Shown here piece after piece: positions 28,628 through 35,607 of a stretch of DNA of 64,000 nucleotides. How positions within the stretch are numbered: position 1 is the stretch's first letter; the number at the start of each line of letters is the position of its first letter. Below the pieces are notes generated by a model, which had not been told where the DNA came from, did not search any database, and saw only the letters and a program-made list of their open reading frames with translations. Both the position numbers and the translations under genes were made by a program. Source of the DNA: Flammeovirgaceae bacterium BBD 1991-12 (GTDB lineage: Bacteria; Bacteroidota; Bacteroidia; Cytophagales; Cyclobacteriaceae); NCBI GenBank assembly GCA_001657315.1, contig LYSV01000013.1, forward strand, positions 1 to 64,000, read 5' to 3'.

Positions 28628-31600
28628 CTAAAAAGTGAGTTGAATACCGGTTGTGACAAAACGCAGAGGAGGCAGAGATGTAGATTGGCTCTCAGGATCA
28701 AGACCTTTATAAGGTGTGATGGTTAAAAGGTTTTGTGCTCTCAAGAAAACTTTGCTGTTCTCAATATAAAGTTTATTGATCCAATTCTCCGGCAGATACC
28801 ATGATAAAGAAACATTTTGCAACCTTATAAAAGATGCATCTACAACTGATGCATCTGAACCTCTGTACCGGTCATAAAAAATAACTGAATTATTGGCAGT
28901 ATATAGCTGTGTGTCTGTTATATCACCAAAGTTTTGCCAGCGATCCACAACATCAGTGTGTTGATTCGTGAGCCCTGACCCAGGGGCACCAAAGTTTAAT
29001 AAAAAATCCCTTCCATCCTGTTTCACAAATTGGAAGAATACATCCAATTGAAGACTTTTAAAGCGAAAACTATTGTTCACTCCACCAAAATATTCCTGAT
29101 CTATTTCTATAAAGTTTTGCCTGTCTAGACTGGAAATACCTCCATCCGCATCCATATCCAGAAAACTATGTTGCCCCGTTTCAGGGTTAACCCCCAAAGA
29201 TGTATAACCCTTGAATCCCGAAAGGGATCTTCCTACTTCAAATAAATTGTCAAAACCGGGGAACGTTTCAATATTCGGGAAATCGACCAGTTCATTTTCT
29301 GGTATAGTTAAATTGGCGCTCGAAGACCATTGAAAATCATCCGTTTGTACATTTATGGTGCCTAGCTCTAATTCCCATCCCCGGTTTTCGATTAACGCCG
29401 GAAGATTGAACTGAATAGATGACTGACCAGTTGTGATAGGCAATGGGCGACCAATTAATTGATTGGACGAGCGGTTGCGAAACCAACTGGTCGTTACAGA
29501 AATCCGATTATTGAAAAGGCCTAGTTCAAGTCCTGCTTCAAGCTTTTTATTGGTTTCCCAGGAATAGTCAGGATTACTCAGGCGCGTTAACACCAATCCT
29601 GTTACCCCTCCATAAGGGTGTTCCGTAGCCTCATAAGAGTTCAGATACTGATAGTCTCCAATCTGGTCGTTCCCTGTCGTACCATAACTACCTCTTATTT
29701 TCCCAAAACTCAAAAAAGGCAAAGAATTCCTGACCAACTGTTCACTCGAAAACACCCATGCGCCCCCAATAGCTCCAAAATTGCCAAACTGGTTGCCGGG
29801 ACCAAAACGACTCGATCCGTCTCTACGTCCGGTTAGGTTTATTATGTATTTATCCTGCCACGAAAAATTGATCCGTGCAAATGCAGCGTTATACCTATAT
29901 TGTGAATAATTGGTTGACCTCAAAGTAATTTCAGAAGCTGATAAAATATCCCTTAAAAGGGCATCGCTTGTATAACCACTAGCCTGGATAGTTTGTCTTT
30001 GAGTGATAGACTCCTGAAAAGTTGCTCCTACCAAAAGGCTTATTTGGCCCTTATCTAAGCTTCTGTTATATTCTATCTGTGGTTCCACACTCCAAGTCTC
30101 GGTAGCTCCATCAGCAAAAAATGTTGTGCCCGTTCTTCCACTTCTAGCACTTGGTCTGACCGCTACAATGGAGTTTGTACTAATTTCTTCAACTTGCAAA
30201 TTGTTATAACCGAAGGTACCTTTTAAGTAAAGACCAGGAATCAATTCATAAAAAAGTAGCGCATTGGATATTAAATTTTTGGAAGTATTTTCATAATCAT
30301 TTCCCAACAGTCCTAATGGATTGTTAAAAGTACTATTTTCCCAGTTAAGGTTGCCTAAGGAATCATATAATGCCGGTGCACTTGGAGGGAGAGTCAGCGC
30401 GGAAAAAGTAAAGTCAATATTTAATCCGTTGGAATTGGTTATATATTGGGTTGATGCATTTAATCTAAACTTATTATTTCTGGACCGATGATTAATATTC
30501 ACCCGCCCCGAGCCTCTTTTAAATTCATTATCATCAGGAAAAACCGTGGTCTGCCTGAAATAATCACCACTGATTAAAAATTGAGTTTGGGCGTTTCCAC
30601 CAGAAACTGATAAACTTGCATTCGTTTGATTCGCAGTTCCACCAATAAGTTCATCTTGCCAGTCCGTAAAACGAGTTGAATCCCATACAAACAAATCAGG
30701 GTAGAAGTTTTGAATAAAACCAGGCGGCGGCCAAAAGCCGTCATTTTGCAGCCCTTCTCTACGCATTTGTATATATTGTTCAGTATTCAGAAGATCTACC
30801 CTGTTGGCTACCTCACCAATACCCTGCGATAAATTAACATTAAATTGGGTTTTTCCCGATCGGCCTTTCTTGGTAGTTATCAGCACCACTCCGTTGGCTC
30901 CACGAGACCCATAGATAGCCGTAGCATCAGCATCCTTTAATATTTCTATACTCTCAATGTCAGAAGGATTTATGGCAGTTAAGGGGTTGCCATTTGACAA
31001 AGTCAGAAAATCAGAGTTTAGCGAAGAAGATAGATAAGGTACCCCATCTATTACATAAAAAGGCAGATTTCCATTTTGAAGCTGTTCACCATCCACAAAT
31101 TGACCATTTCTTATACTGTTTTTCCCGCGAATTTGAATATTTACAGCACTACCCGGTATCCCTGAAGTTTCCTGAATCTGCACTCCGGCTACTCGCCCTT
31201 GTATTGCAAGTAACGGGTTGGTAATAGGTTGCTGCTCTATTTCACTTGCTGTAACTTTACCAATATTACCAGGGTTCAGCTTCTGATCTACCTTCCAGTA
31301 TCCCGTACTAACGATAACTTCGTTCAGCGAGGTAATGTCCGGCGTCAGCATGATATCAATCACAGATTGACTACCGATCACTATCTCCTTCGTAATGTAC
31401 CCCACAAAAGAGATCAGCAGGGTATCCGCCTCGTCCGGAACATCCACGGCATAGTTGCCTTCCACATCAGCCACAGCACCGATGATGGTACCTTTTACCA
31501 GCACGTTGGCACCGGGGAGTGGAGCACCGTTCTCATCGGTTATTTTCCCACGAATGATCTTGAACGGAGCCGGCACTGCTTTTACCTTGTTTTCTGTGGT

Positions 31601-31957
31601 AGGCGGAGGAACCGGTGCATTTACAATGATCTGATCGTTGCGCTGCCGGAAGGAGGCTCCTGTTTCCCTGGAGAGGTCTTTCAATACCTTGGCTACACTT
31701 ACATTGTCTGCCTTGATGGTGACCTTGCGGGTGTTGGCTAACGTGAGCGCTTCCTTACTGATGACAAAGCTGAATTCCGTCTTCCGATCTATTTCCAGAA
31801 AGGCATCCTTCATAGTGACGTGCCGTAGGTCCAGCGTGACATTCACCTTATCGATCCCCTGTGTCCTGCCGTTTCCCGCCAGTAGCACTCCTGAGAAGCA
31901 ACATACCATACACATCACCCTGATCATAACGACTAGGTTGAGTAAAACTATTTTCAT
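28628..31957 (-). CDS. SusC/RagA TonB-dependent outer-membrane receptor with STN domain
   Basis: The 1109-residue receptor has, in order: a signal peptide; an STN domain (residues about 35-110, VTLDLRHVTMKDAFLEI to FRQRNDQIIVN) that usually signals to FecR; a carboxypeptidase-like domain (IIRGKITDENGAPLPGANVLV); a plug with EVIVSTGYWKVDQ and ESIEILKDADATAIYGSRGA; and a 22-strand barrel ending IQLTF. This layout marks a transducing importer whose STN talks to the anti-sigma FecR encoded upstream. ATG 31957 is preferred because it begins the hydrophobic signal. It is followed at 13 bp by susD. Confidence 0.95.
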   Translation of the reverse strand: MKIVLLNLVVMIRVMCMVCCFSGVLLAGNGRTQGIDKVNVTLDLRHVTMKDAFLEIDRKTEFSFVISKEALTLANTRKVTIKADNVSVAKVLKDLSRETGASFRQRNDQIIVNAPVPPPTTENKVKAVPAPFKIIRGKITDENGAPLPGANVLVKGTIIGAVADVEGNYAVDVPDEADTLLISFVGYITKEIVIGSQSVIDIMLTPDITSLNEVIVSTGYWKVDQKLNPGNIGKVTASEIEQQPITNPLLAIQGRVAGVQIQETSGIPGSAVNIQIRGKNSIRNGQFVDGEQLQNGNLPFYVIDGVPYLSSSLNSDFLTLSNGNPLTAINPSDIESIEILKDADATAIYGSRGANGVVLITTKKGRSGKTQFNVNLSQGIGEVANRVDLLNTEQYIQMRREGLQNDGFWPPPGFIQNFYPDLFVWDSTRFTDWQDELIGGTANQTNASLSVSGGNAQTQFLISGDYFRQTTVFPDDNEFKRGSGRVNINHRSRNNKFRLNASTQYITNSNGLNIDFTFSALTLPPSAPALYDSLGNLNWENSTFNNPLGLLGNDYENTSKNLISNALLFYELIPGLYLKGTFGYNNLQVEEISTNSIVAVRPSARSGRTGTTFFADGATETWSVEPQIEYNRSLDKGQISLLVGATFQESITQRQTIQASGYTSDALLRDILSASEITLRSTNYSQYRYNAAFARINFSWQDKYIINLTGRRDGSSRFGPGNQFGNFGAIGGAWVFSSEQLVRNSLPFLSFGKIRGSYGTTGNDQIGDYQYLNSYEATEHPYGGVTGLVLTRLSNPDYSWETNKKLEAGLELGLFNNRISVTTSWFRNRSSNQLIGRPLPITTGQSSIQFNLPALIENRGWELELGTINVQTDDFQWSSSANLTIPENELVDFPNIETFPGFDNLFEVGRSLSGFKGYTSLGVNPETGQHSFLDMDADGGISSLDRQNFIEIDQEYFGGVNNSFRFKSLQLDVFFQFVKQDGRDFLLNFGAPGSGLTNQHTDVVDRWQNFGDITDTQLYTANNSVIFYDRYRGSDASVVDASFIRLQNVSLSWYLPENWINKLYIENSKVFLRAQNLLTITPYKGLDPESQSTSLPPLRFVTTGIQLTF

Positions 31958-32155
31958 TATTTTTACACTGTTTAATTTTATTGAATGCAAAAGGGCTTCC
32001 GGCATCAATTGGCGTTGAGAGAGGGAGTCCTTTTGGTTTTATACGTGGGGATTTCATCCTCCATGTCCTCGACACAAAGGTGCGGCACGCACAGCGTCTA
32101 TGTTTTCATAAGGGTCTTTTCTTTTTGGTTATACACAGTATTTTATAGGTTTATT

Positions 32156-33193
32156 TTATTGCGGGCAACCTTCGTTGCCATCTATAGCTACACTTATTTC
32201 GCCGCCATTTTCACGGAATTCATACTGGAAATCCACCATGGAAAGCTGAATGACTTTCAGCACTTCAGCGAGATTTTTATTTTGAAATTGTGCCGCGATC
32301 AGACAGTTGCCCATCGCTTTATTTTGCAGGGTGATCGTGGTGCCGTACCATCGCTCCAGCGCCGTGATCACATCGCTCAACCGGGCATCGTCAAACCGCA
32401 GGCGGCCTTCCTTCCACGCCAGGTACCGGTCCAGCTCCACCGCCTTTTTCTCCAGCGTGCCCAGGCGGGTGTCGAAGACAGCCTGTTCACTGGGGGTGAG
32501 CAAAACGCCGGAGCCTTCCTCCGCGGCAACACGCACTTTACCCGTGGCCACGGTGACCTGTACATCCTCTTCCGGAAAGGCCCGGATGTTAAATGAGGTG
32601 CCCAACACCTCTGTAACTACCCCAGAAGTGCTAATAATAAAGGGCTTTCGTTCATTTCTTATGACCTCGAAAAAGGCCTCTCCTTCCAGCGATACCTCGC
32701 GGCTATTGCCGGAAAATACCTTTGGGTAGGTGAGACGGCTCCCTGAATTGAGCCTCACGACGGATCCGTCACTCAGGGTGATCGTAGACTTTTGACCGGC
32801 CCGGGTTTCGTATACCAGCATGCTGGTACTGGTTTCAGTCGGGCCGGTTGCTGACGGGTACAATATCCAAGTAGCTGCTATAGCCAGTACGATCACCGCC
32901 GCAGCCTTGTACCACACAAATTTTTTCTTCTGAGGAGCTTTTGGAATTTTGGGCAGGGGGCTTTCCTCCTGCCCGAAATCGCTCATCAGGTCGTTATATA
33001 CTTCATCAAACGCTTCTGAATAATCAGCATCCTCAGCACTCTCACTCGCCGCTGACCGTGCAGCCGATAGCAATTCCTTTTCCTCCTTCGGATCGGTAAT
33101 CCCTTTGATACGATTCAGGAGCTTTCTGAACTCACCAAATGAACTGACATTCAGGACATGCTTTTCAATAAGCCGTTTGAAACTATTTTTCAT
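32156..33193 (-). CDS. FecR-type anti-sigma factor / transducer
   Basis: The 345-residue inner-membrane protein has a cytoplasmic N-terminal part (residues 1-85), one membrane helix (WYKAAAVIVLAIAATWILYP), the FecR domain (YETRAGQKSTITLSDGSVVRL, SGSRLTYPKVF, EVSLEGEAFFEV) and a DUF4974 C-terminal domain (LSDVITALERWYGTTITLQN). It transmits the substrate signal from the SusC STN domain to a sigma factor. The ATG at 33193 removes an 11-residue extension. It lies 131 bp after the truncated sigma gene and 198 bp before susC, in the usual order. Confidence 0.92.
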   Translation of the reverse strand: MKNSFKRLIEKHVLNVSSFGEFRKLLNRIKGITDPKEEKELLSAARSAASESAEDADYSEAFDEVYNDLMSDFGQEESPLPKIPKAPQKKKFVWYKAAAVIVLAIAATWILYPSATGPTETSTSMLVYETRAGQKSTITLSDGSVVRLNSGSRLTYPKVFSGNSREVSLEGEAFFEVIRNERKPFIISTSGVVTEVLGTSFNIRAFPEEDVQVTVATGKVRVAAEEGSGVLLTPSEQAVFDTRLGTLEKKAVELDRYLAWKEGRLRFDDARLSDVITALERWYGTTITLQNKAMGNCLIAAQFQNKNLAEVLKVIQLSMVDFQYEFRENGGEISVAIDGNEGCPQ

Positions 33194-33324
33194 AGTAAAC
33201 ACATATAAGCGAACACCATAACACAACAGGTGTATGGGATTATCATCCAGGTGAAAAAGAAATTATGAAAGTAAAAAGGAGGGTAATTAAAAACCGTCAG
33301 ACAAGCGGAGTGCCAATTAAACGG

Positions 33325-33756
33325 TTATCCCTCGGTGGAAAGTTTTGGCGTGAGCTGCCATTGCAGAATGTTGTTATGGATGGTTTTGATGGAATTCTCC
33401 TGTTCACTACTGATCGTGACTTCCTCCGCTTCGCTGCTCCTTGTTCTCAAACAGTTATTCCAGACTTCCGTCTGCAGGGTTTCGTCATCTGCTACCTGCT
33501 TCAGGTAGTTCAGGCTCAGGTCACCGGCTGTTTCAAACAAGTAGTTTTCGAGCGATTCAGTGGAATCGAACGAGAGGCGGTTTTTCCAGGCTTGCCGGAA
33601 GGCCTCTTTCACAATGGTTTTGGAAATTTCCTCGGATTTCGTGAGAGATATTACATGATGATAGACCTCCTTGAAGTAAAGGTGGATGATCTGCTGAAAG
33701 CATTCCTTCGATCCTCCTGATAATCCTGCCGATAAGTCTAACTCTCTCACTATCAA
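33325..33756 (-). CDS. ECF sigma factor remnant: region 2 only, region 4 missing
   Basis: The 143-residue product shows sigma-70 region 2 (CFQQIIHLYFKEVYHHVISL, then EEISKTIVKEAFRQAWKNR and ENYLFETAGDLSLNYLKQ). It stops at the point where region 4 should start (LQWQLTPKLSTEG). The roughly 100 bp after the stop contain no helix-turn-helix in any frame I read. There is also no ATG start: the frame opens with TTG at 33756, with GTG at 33750 as the alternative. It is placed as the sigma gene of the FecR-SusC locus. It may be a decayed gene or a deliberate short form that binds RNA polymerase or FecR without promoter recognition. A full ECF sigma at 19.3 kb could serve instead. Confidence 0.65.
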   Translation of the reverse strand: MIVRELDLSAGLSGGSKECFQQIIHLYFKEVYHHVISLTKSEEISKTIVKEAFRQAWKNRLSFDSTESLENYLFETAGDLSLNYLKQVADDETLQTEVWNNCLRTRSSEAEEVTISSEQENSIKTIHNNILQWQLTPKLSTEG

Positions 33757-34229
33757 ATATTCAACCCAGACCAGCGAAGACGTGCATTAATCTTTCACTG
33801 TGAACAATGGTGTTAAGTTTATGTTATCACTAAGTTTCGAATATAGTTAAATAGGAACGAAAAATCCAAAAATCCTACATGCTACGGCGGCTATATTTAT
33901 CCTAGCAAATACGCTGAAGATGTAAATAATATTATAAAAAAACACGATAAATTCTAGTCGTAACAAAAAAGTAATATTAAATTTTTAATAAAATTTACCT
34001 TATTATCTAATTGATATTTTTTTAAAAAAATTTTTTCCCACCTTGAAATCGACTGCCTGAAAGTCCGGCTAAGCGCCGGTTTTTACGAAAAGTATCCATG
34101 CTATCGGAATCGTGCTGGTCAGGTTGTTTTTTTTGTCCGTGGGTCCTACCCCTGATCCCCCGAAGTGTTGTAACCAGGCCCGCCCAGACGGCAGTCAGGA
34201 TGACTTGAACACGGGTGCCGACCATTTTC
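33757..34229. other. AT-rich non-coding gap upstream of the sigma remnant
   Basis: The first 270 bp are very AT-rich with no open frame; they probably contain the promoter of the minus-strand locus, although I cannot point to a convincing -7 box. A GC-rich section from about 34050 leads into the repeat cluster. Confidence 0.4.
34065..34084 (+). terminator. Short terminator-like hairpin
   Basis: CCGGC and GCCGG with a 5-nt loop, followed by TTTTT. No plus-strand gene precedes it closely, so its role is unclear. Confidence 0.4.
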
Positions 34230-34360
34230 ACGTCACTGCAAGGACGGCAGGACGAAGCAGTCCCCCTGATACCGGAAACCAAACCGAGTTCATACTGCAA
34301 AATCTGAGGAGGAGATTGCCGCGCTGCACCCCAAATACCCCAGACACTTGCTCGCAAAAA
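34230..34360. repeat. Partial copy of the 152-bp TIR element
   Basis: The left half (ACGTCACTGCAAGGACGGC to about 34300) matches the intact elements; the right half is diverged and lacks the terminal inverted repeat. The end coordinate is approximate. Confidence 0.65.
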
Positions 34361-34371
34361 TGATCATATTT

Positions 34372-34523
34372 ACGTCACTGCGAGGACAGCAGGACGAAGC
34401 AGTCCCCTGATACCGAAGACCAAACCGGGTTCATGCTGCGAAATCTAACAGGGAGATGATTACGCTTCCCCTCCCGATCAGGAGACTGCTTCTTCGCTCG
34501 TGCCTCACTCATCGCAGTGACGT
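34372..34523. repeat. 152-bp element with 12-bp terminal inverted repeats, copy left of the GIY-YIG gene
   Basis: The ends are ACGTCACTGCGA and its exact complement. Inside is a second inverted pair (GAAGCAGTC and GACTGCTTC). It is nearly identical in sequence and identical in length to the copy at 34937-35088. The roughly 48 bp after it (TTTGTCATTCC...) also resembles the sequence after the other copy. Confidence 0.85.
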
Positions 34524-34600
34524 TGAATTTTTTATTTGTCATTCCAACTCCAGGCATTTTTTGAAAATGTGGCAACTCTTAATGATGAATAAATTTAAAA

Positions 34601-34903
34601 TTACCAATCCTTAACATGATCTTCAAACAGATCCTTCCATTCGGGATTCATAGACTGGATCAGTCCAATCTTTTTACCTCTGGATCCTGCTTTTATCTGT
34701 TTTTCTCTTTCAATCGCCTCTTCTATGGAATGAAACAATTCATAATAAACCAGTTTTGAGCAGTTGTATCTGGCTGTAAAACTGCTTGGAAAGGTTTTAT
34801 CACGGTGTTGGATTGTCCTTGCAACCAGGTCTTCACAGACACCCGTATATAAAGTTGTATGATGGGCATTCGTAATGATGTAAACTGCACCTCCTTTGGT
34901 CAT
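34601..34903 (-). CDS. GIY-YIG single-domain nuclease
   Basis: This is a 100-residue stand-alone GIY-YIG domain of the URI/YhbQ-like type. The signature strands are VYIITNAHHTTLYTGV (GIY as VYI, YIG as YTG). The catalytic arginine region is ARTIQHRDK and the metal-binding glutamate lies in EEAIEREKQIKAGSR. The family ending NPEWKDLFED is present. Such proteins cut or nick DNA, but most stand-alone members have no assigned biological role. The gene is bracketed by two same-orientation 152-bp elements, which suggests that the enzyme acts on, or spreads with, these repeats. No transposase is nearby. Confidence 0.9.
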   Translation of the reverse strand: MTKGGAVYIITNAHHTTLYTGVCEDLVARTIQHRDKTFPSSFTARYNCSKLVYYELFHSIEEAIEREKQIKAGSRGKKIGLIQSMNPEWKDLFEDHVKDW

Positions 34904-34936
34904 GTGTTAAAGGTAGTGAACTTTAAAAAACAAACC

Positions 34937-35088
34937 ACGTCACTGCGAGGACGGCAGGACGAAGCAGTCCCCCGATACCGGAGACCAAACCGAATTTATA
35001 CCGCGAAATCCAACAGGGAATTGATCACGTTTCCCTTCCCGATCAGGAGACTGCTTCTTCGCTCGTGCCTCGCTCATCGCAGTGACGT
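34937..35088. repeat. 152-bp element with 12-bp terminal inverted repeats, copy right of the GIY-YIG gene
   Basis: It has the same ends and length as the copy at 34372-34523. It begins 33 bp upstream of the GIY-YIG start codon, so it may also overlap that gene's promoter. The following 48 bp continue the similarity to the left copy. Confidence 0.85.
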
Positions 35089-35607
35089 TTAATTTTTTGT
35101 TTTGTCATCCCAGCTTCAGGTATTTTTTAAATGTGCTCACTCGCAACAACGTATTTTGATCGTTTTAAAGAGGTTTTAAATCTTCCTTATCCCAAATTCA
35201 CGTTAGTTTTAAGCCGTTTAGCTCCGGTGGCTTAACAAAAGCAGGACTAAATTACCACGTCAAACATTTCCTTACATCTTGCTGAACCAGCCTCGCGGGT
35301 CGTAGAAGATCCATGAATATGCGCAGACCCGTGCGAACAGGTCCACTAACCTCAGTTTCAGAGGTTTTTGGAAAGTCAGACAGTTACAACCTTATCATTT
35401 CTACCAGGCTGAATCTCCTCAGGAATGAATAAACCGAGACGTCAGAGGCTGTCAGACGCTGAATTCTGCTAAAGAGGTACGGACATGCAGAATGTTGCGG
35501 ACAACCGTTGGAATTACCTGGTCAGTTGAAAATGAGGGAGTTACCATAGCTCCCAAAGCTCCCGAACTGGTCATGATCAGCAGATAGGTGACGGATATAG
35601 GATTTTA

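Follow-up and report, generated by a model that had tools for sequence, protein, structure and literature searches.

The closest described counterpart of the locus reported here is the REPtron/REPIN system of the RAYT (TnpA-REP) enzymes, in which a small nuclease gene lies amid its own palindromic repeats in inverted dimers, with one repeat family per enzyme and a patchy distribution (PMC6006769). The two systems differ in their enzyme, a GIY-YIG nuclease here and an HUH tyrosine enzyme in RAYT; in their tag, CGTC/GTCA here and GTAG in RAYT repeats; and in the tandem GA that lies inside the stem in many of the families described below. Because enzyme and tag both differ, the GIY-YIG system works like a REPtron but is not a REPtron member.

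Two groups of GIY-YIG proteins also invite comparison. Single-domain UPF0213 proteins (PDB 1zg2 and 1ywl) are the nearest solved structures to the protein studied here, but the similarity is remote, at 26% identity to 1zg2 across the aligned region. Free-standing GIY-YIG homing endonucleases have the same catalytic domain and conserved residues, with selfish behaviour proposed. GIY-YIG homing enzymes have a second DNA-binding domain, whereas the present protein is a single domain of about 100 aa, and it accompanies dispersed hairpin copies rather than one target gene.

Among repeats, REPs tagged CGTC have been described in five phyla, apparently without a dedicated transposase, and their superfamily includes Neisseria dRS3 and Rickettsia RPE-4 and RPE-6 (Di Nocera et al., 2013; PMC3733652). 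Their features are an 8-9 bp stem beginning AT and a short tail, mostly CCA, and no associated transposase had been found for them in 2013 (PMC3733652). Comparison of sequences across bacteria suggests, as our best reading, that a GIY-YIG nuclease drives a REP-like mobile system of which the locus is part, a system that parallels RAYT without being related to it.

A nuclease gene between two hairpin dimers

The window, that is, the whole 64,000-nucleotide stretch of DNA analysed, contains the following features.

34601..34903, minus strand: GIY-YIG nuclease gene, 100 aa (open reading frame; Pfam PF01541, E 5.6e-11)
34372..34523, plus strand: element copy 1, a 152-bp hairpin dimer downstream of the gene (DNA self-comparison and fold)
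34937..35088, plus strand: element copy 2, a 152-bp hairpin dimer upstream of the gene, direct to copy 1
34220..34316, plus strand: third element copy, partial (left hairpin at 34232-34262 and part of the spacer)
34374..34404, plus strand: left hairpin of copy 1, GTCA-CTGC-GA...GA-A-GCAG-TC
34484..34521, minus strand: right hairpin of copy 1, tag outward
34939..34969, plus strand: left hairpin of copy 2
35049..35086, minus strand: right hairpin of copy 2, tag outward
34524..34571, plus strand: similarity extension past copy 1
35089..35135, plus strand: similarity extension past copy 2

The original prediction, made from this DNA alone, was of two 152-bp elements in the same orientation with identical 12-bp ends around a 100-residue GIY-YIG nuclease gene, and it is borne out: copies 1 and 2 are identical at 137 of 152 positions and end in ACGTCACTGCGA/TCGCAGTGACGT, and the similarity, put at about 48 bp beyond each element, continues for about 47 bp (copy 2 with its extension, 34937-35135, matches at 88% by DNA similarity). 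The third, partial copy was absent from that prediction, as was the dimer build of the elements, each of which consists of two hairpins with GTCA tags outward, of the form GTCA–stem–GA…GA–stem'–TC. Folded as a whole 152-nt strand, copy 1 is far more stable than its shuffles (z -5.3, 0/200), whereas the five window hairpins folded singly (ViennaRNA) are not exceptional against shuffles (z -1.98 to +1.90). A hairpin-grammar scan of the whole window gave 25 partly overlapping matches, nine on the elements and the others scattered.

Compared with CGTC-REPs, the window element is alike in its CGTC tag, present at one end (the elements begin ACGTC), and in forming dimers. It differs in its shorter first stem, ACTGC followed by GA mismatches in place of an 8-9 bp stem beginning AT, and in having no CCA tail, the left hairpins ending GTCCCC and the right ones GTCTCC. 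The element family is low copy and nearly confined to this locus in the 8.6-Mb source genome, where DNA similarity places it at five sites, three of them here, and the hairpin pattern finds six hairpins, four of them here. Beside the locus, at 28628-33756, lie what we take to be SusC/TonB-type receptor, FecR-like anti-sigma and sigma-factor-like genes, an ordinary set for Bacteroidota.

PF01541 (GIY-YIG) is the sole Pfam match of the window protein, which has no HUH-type Y1 tyrosine transposase match. Across a 65-sequence alignment, residues Y19, G21, R29, H33, E67 and N86 do not vary, which points to a preserved active site; Y19, R29, E67 and N86 correspond to the catalytic Tyr, Arg, Glu and Asn of GIY-YIG nucleases. 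An AlphaFold2 model (pLDDT 94.3) was nearest to UPF0213 1zg2 in a fold search, the sole match under E 0.001, followed by Slx1 and UvrC, and a profile search likewise gave 1zg2 and 1ywl as the nearest solved structures. Phage sequences searched with the window protein at 1e-5 gave no match; PADLOC gave none for the window protein, and four of its families were each matched by one or two of the 65 members.

Hairpins beside related nuclease genes

Searching one genome per species with the window protein yielded 79 loci, many of them from MAGs, whose flanks follow one hairpin grammar with many stems: GTC, then A plus a short stem, a variable middle, and the complementary stem, whose last base is T, before a final C. 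A free-stem scanner found 2.99 matches/kb within 500 bp of the gene and 0.196/kb more than 1 kb away, compared with 0.09-0.61/kb near and 0.06-0.20/kb far for ten altered tags or tails. With two scanners together, a hairpin lies within 400 bp of the gene in 73/79 loci; where at least 200 bp of flank was available on each side (75 loci), matches were on both sides in 45, on one in 25 and on neither in 5, two of which (L054 and L064) show variant hairpins on inspection by eye. For mock genes set into these loci, the rate of a match within 400 bp was 15.7% (26.6% at most over 200 draws), and matches lay on both sides in 1.2%. UvrC genes at 30 loci (the best of 41 Bacteroidota genomes searched) gave 0.22/kb over the whole length, near background. 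Since the scanners were designed after inspecting the flanks of the same loci, the decisive controls are the altered-motif, far-flank and UvrC figures.

Of 30 further Bacteroidota loci, the best-scoring Pfam GIY-YIG places in 247 genomes, 19 had a match within 400 bp, and the GA scanner alone found 18 within 500 bp (2.84/kb near, 0.078/kb far), although a few matches, at L098 and L121, look accidental. Among window-protein-search loci in the tree table, 71/77 are flanked, and they come from 18 named phylum-level groups and others, the names being those given in the sequence records, many of which are MAGs. Thermodesulfobacteriota and Uhriibacteriota score 0/1 each by the scanners, and a looser motif is present in both. 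The association of the nuclease with hairpins is thus strongly supported: the enrichment beside GIY-YIG genes looked for across genomes is found in many phyla and is confined to certain GIY-YIG clades, and the reservation that the gene might sit between two elements by chance is ruled out by the near/far, mock-gene and UvrC controls.

Many families have the stem followed by GA on the 5′ side, and GA preceding the stem on the 3′ side. Tandem GA mismatches can form stable non-Watson-Crick pairs. When all 256 dinucleotide pairs were tried at this position, GA/GA gave 157 near matches against a median of 5; similar counts for CG/AG (166), CG/AA (149) and GA/AA (128) are read as probably the GA/GA motif shifted by one base. 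Inside the GA pair, at least two further base pairs occur in 42% of elements, compared with 13% of shuffled inner sequences (217/222 elements).

Stems are also matched across the gene. A 5-nt stem is common to both sides in 60/74 two-sided loci, a set that includes near-duplicates and congeners, against a mean of 18.8 and a maximum of 29 in 1000 partner shuffles; with 18 near-duplicate or congener loci barred the figure is 49/63 (shuffled mean 14.4, maximum 22), and in the window-protein-search set alone it is 31/37 (shuffled mean 18.9, maximum 26). The source genome has two further paralogs (L007 on contig C214 and L008 on C154), and by eye its three genes lie in three hairpin families; genomes G214 and G208, with several GIY-YIG genes each, likewise have separate families. 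The genome comparisons give good support to a functional link between this nuclease clade and GTCA/CGTC hairpin dimers.

The pairing follows the protein tree, which was built by quick search from 119/135 GIY-YIG proteins (15 omitted for length, one as a duplicate) over 99 columns, with 13/116 inner branches starred. Elements flank 76/86 rows in the clade with the window gene (support 100), 12/14 in a Bacteroidota clade with GTCA..GAG..TCGA-type hairpins (support 83), 0/10 in a clade designated C (support 88), and six of the remaining nine rows. Element presence is clustered above every one of 500 label shuffles, and clade C rules out the hairpin link as a trait of GIY-YIG genes in general.

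Clade C has neighbours of another kind. Eight of its ten loci (L100, L103, L113, L114, L116, L123, L192 and L194) have a tRNA gene (seven) or RNase P RNA (one, L113) near the nuclease gene, the tRNAs being Pro, Lys, Leu, Pro, Ser, Val and Arg; an Rfam scan of 14 loci at gathering scores found only tRNA and RNase P. Several of the clade C loci have repeated tRNA 3′ ends or tandem copies, as in G236 (five copies 450 bp apart) and G132 (three, 317 bp apart).

Relatives of the nuclease were found in 35 records of a plasmid collection, including species named in the CGTC-REP paper (PMC3733652). Of the 12 loci inspected among these 35, 11 had a scanner match no farther than 400 bp from the gene, and nine had matches on each side (4.4 matches/kb near, 0.62/kb far). 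Matches at L252, L255 and upstream of L258 look accidental; inspection by eye shows a GTCG-tagged variant at L252 (Novosphingobium) and a CTCA-tagged one at L255, and L256 has no hairpin match near the gene. The flanking hairpins in several alphaproteobacteria and Neisseria look like CGTC-REPs: by eye, this holds for Azospirillum lipoferum, Sinorhizobium meliloti and Neisseria (GTCATCCCCGCGAAGGCGGGGATCCA, GTCATCCTCGGGCTTGACCCGAGGATCC, GTCATTCCCGCGCAGGCGGGAATC), the Neisseria record being chromosome-sized and classed as a plasmid, and an 8-9 bp stem beginning AT is present by eye at the A. lipoferum and Neisseria loci. Among the papers listed in searches of open PubMed Central texts, no published link of GIY-YIG to these repeats was found.

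Another GIY-YIG cassette of the collection, at L257 (Planktothrix agardhii plasmid p1), has an MmeI-type restriction enzyme on one side and the DISARM gene drmA on the other.

Filled and empty sites, and a proposed route of spread

A. lipoferum 4B carries a dimer-gene-dimer cassette in a 617-bp gap between sufB and sufC, where it breaks up the suf operon (L249). All five congeners examined are empty at this site (5/5), with gaps of 32 to 129 bp and no cassette, and the closest of them is 97.9% identical in the aligned flanks. The A. lipoferum replicon holds 10 hairpins in five dimers, two at the gene and three away from it, compared with 0, 0, 0 and 1 hairpins on the suf-bearing replicons of four congeners; other Azospirillum records in the plasmid collection, which mostly leaves chromosomes outside, gave no match to the protein. 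For two of the three solo dimers the orthologous site is empty, in 3/3 and 2/2 relatives examined. No target duplication was seen at two Azospirillum filled/empty sites, where there are extra bases on both sides and the intergenic flanks have diverged.

Among Acidobacteriaceae, one cassette (L073) shares only gene and hairpins with three others that are mutually syntenic, and three Legionellaceae cassettes share little beyond gene and hairpins, with downstream homology ending near the GTC tag. Arenibacter and Pedobacter, among the matches listed, keep the cassette position between species while hairpins are gained and lost around the gene, which argues that not every cassette moves often. When twelve hairpin stretches were taken from each of two congeneric genomes, G186 and G049, two pairs proved orthologous among the G049 copies listed.

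A GIY-YIG match also lies between sufB and sufC in Shinella sp. PSBB067 (NZ_CP069303.1, about 1538740-1539732), as in A. lipoferum, and sufB-sufC is possibly a repeated landing site.

We consider it likely that the nuclease gene and the hairpin elements form a two-part mobile system in which the elements are recognised by the nuclease, and the spread of the dimers would be best explained if the nuclease drives it. The nuclease would most likely recognise the tag along with the hairpin and the tandem GA mismatch inside it, where the DNA is single-stranded or extruded, and nick it, after which host repair or replication would place new dimer copies elsewhere. The gene with its flanking dimers would also move or be transferred as a cassette, and stem types would be specific to nuclease lineages, in the way that every RAYT has a REP family to itself. 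The original prediction of a REP/RAYT-like unit thus stands for the association across phyla, in certain clades, and for the shared stems; its further step, to an enzyme that nicks the elements or makes them mobile, is one that we infer from these patterns.

Among other readings, the one that fares best, although we regard it as unlikely, is homing, in which the nuclease would cut solo dimers, repair over the common dimer sequence would copy the gene cassette in, and the dimers would be landing pads spread by other means. GIY-YIG homing endonucleases are a known kind of enzyme (PMC1564403). The arrangement would suit such a process, since the copies on either side of the gene are often in direct orientation (50 of 104 loci, against 17 inverted and 37 undecided), and Sinorhizobium K101 has element remnants without the gene at the site where S. 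meliloti has the cassette. However, homing leaves unexplained both the amplification of dimers and the dispersed dimers that occur where the gene does and are missing from close relatives that lack it.

We lean towards a wider proposal, in which the CGTC-REPs, and a larger GTCA-hairpin superfamily in at least 18 phylum-level groups, are mobilised by GIY-YIG nucleases dedicated to them. This would be a second REP system with an evolutionary origin of its own: its hydrolytic nuclease, with no covalent DNA intermediate, would spread dimers and its own cassette via host repair. The mover that has been lacking for a large class of bacterial repeats may then be the GIY-YIG family, and now that there is a candidate enzyme whose genomic signature is clear, the missing-transposase question of the CGTC-tagged repeats (PMC3733652) becomes directly testable. 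Were the proposal true, two unrelated enzyme folds would spread short hairpin repeats, a role could be given to genes whose sole annotation is 'GIY-YIG nuclease family protein', and one source of the intergenic repeats of Bacteroidota and other phyla would be accounted for.

Repeat copies and nuclease genes in Bacteroidota

Copies of one stem type only, the ATTGC type (GTCATTGCGA..GCAATC), were counted in 247 Bacteroidota genomes and compared with PF01541 matches, a single match in a genome being taken as UvrC. None of the 35 genomes with a single match has at least three copies (four have one or two), against 59 of the other 212 (Fisher p 5e-5, kinship not corrected). The prediction that a single extra GIY-YIG gene would be ATTGC-flanked failed in seven of the eight genomes with exactly one extra match and at least four copies: the extra gene is so flanked in one (G060), is flanked by another stem type in G157, and is unflanked in G020, G193 and G036, two of these with an internal stop; in G002, G133 and G138 the extra match is not a solo protein.

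The genome G002 has 445 ATTGC-type copies on a single contig. A search of it with the window protein at E 0.1 gave no match and no intact solo GIY-YIG was found; its one remote GIY-YIG relative (E 9.7e-4) reads as probably degenerate, with the arginine missing and the glutamate displaced. G002 rules out the strict rule of no repeats where there is no cognate nuclease: repeats can persist, and may have spread, with no intact cognate gene now present. The outcome for the original expectation that repeats would not be common in genomes lacking the nuclease is mixed: the single-match genomes fit it, and G002 and the eight-genome prediction speak against it.

The same genome lends something to a reading that we hold to be very improbable, namely that the hairpins serve the nuclease gene as terminators or regulatory structures, or that the nuclease is a host enzyme for trimming hairpin DNA, with the repeats spread by other means. 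Besides the 445 copies kept in G002 with no intact enzyme, this reading can point to one Bacteroidota family that keeps GIY-YIG-like proteins, their catalytic residues apparently lost, with no elements. It is opposed by the dimers that also occur far from the gene and by the joint change of stem type on both sides of the gene. Chance, or passive build-up of common intergenic repeats around an unrelated small gene, is hardly credible, for repeats are indeed common in some genomes but the near/far contrast is about 15-fold within the same loci, UvrC is near background and clade C scores 0/10.

The GIY-YIG-like proteins of that family occur in all six of its genomes searched, with a strong match in five and the match at E 9.7e-4 in G002 (loci L181, L182, L186, L191 and L244).

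A 400-kb sample of G002 (L219-L238) has outward-tagged dimers in 26/31 neighbouring hairpin pairs, with tandem extra heads (GTCATTGCGAGG plus about 5-12 nt) outside the dimers. In 15/26 dimers the spacer contains a nested dimer of a second hairpin family, which could reflect repeated insertions or the amplification of one composite unit.
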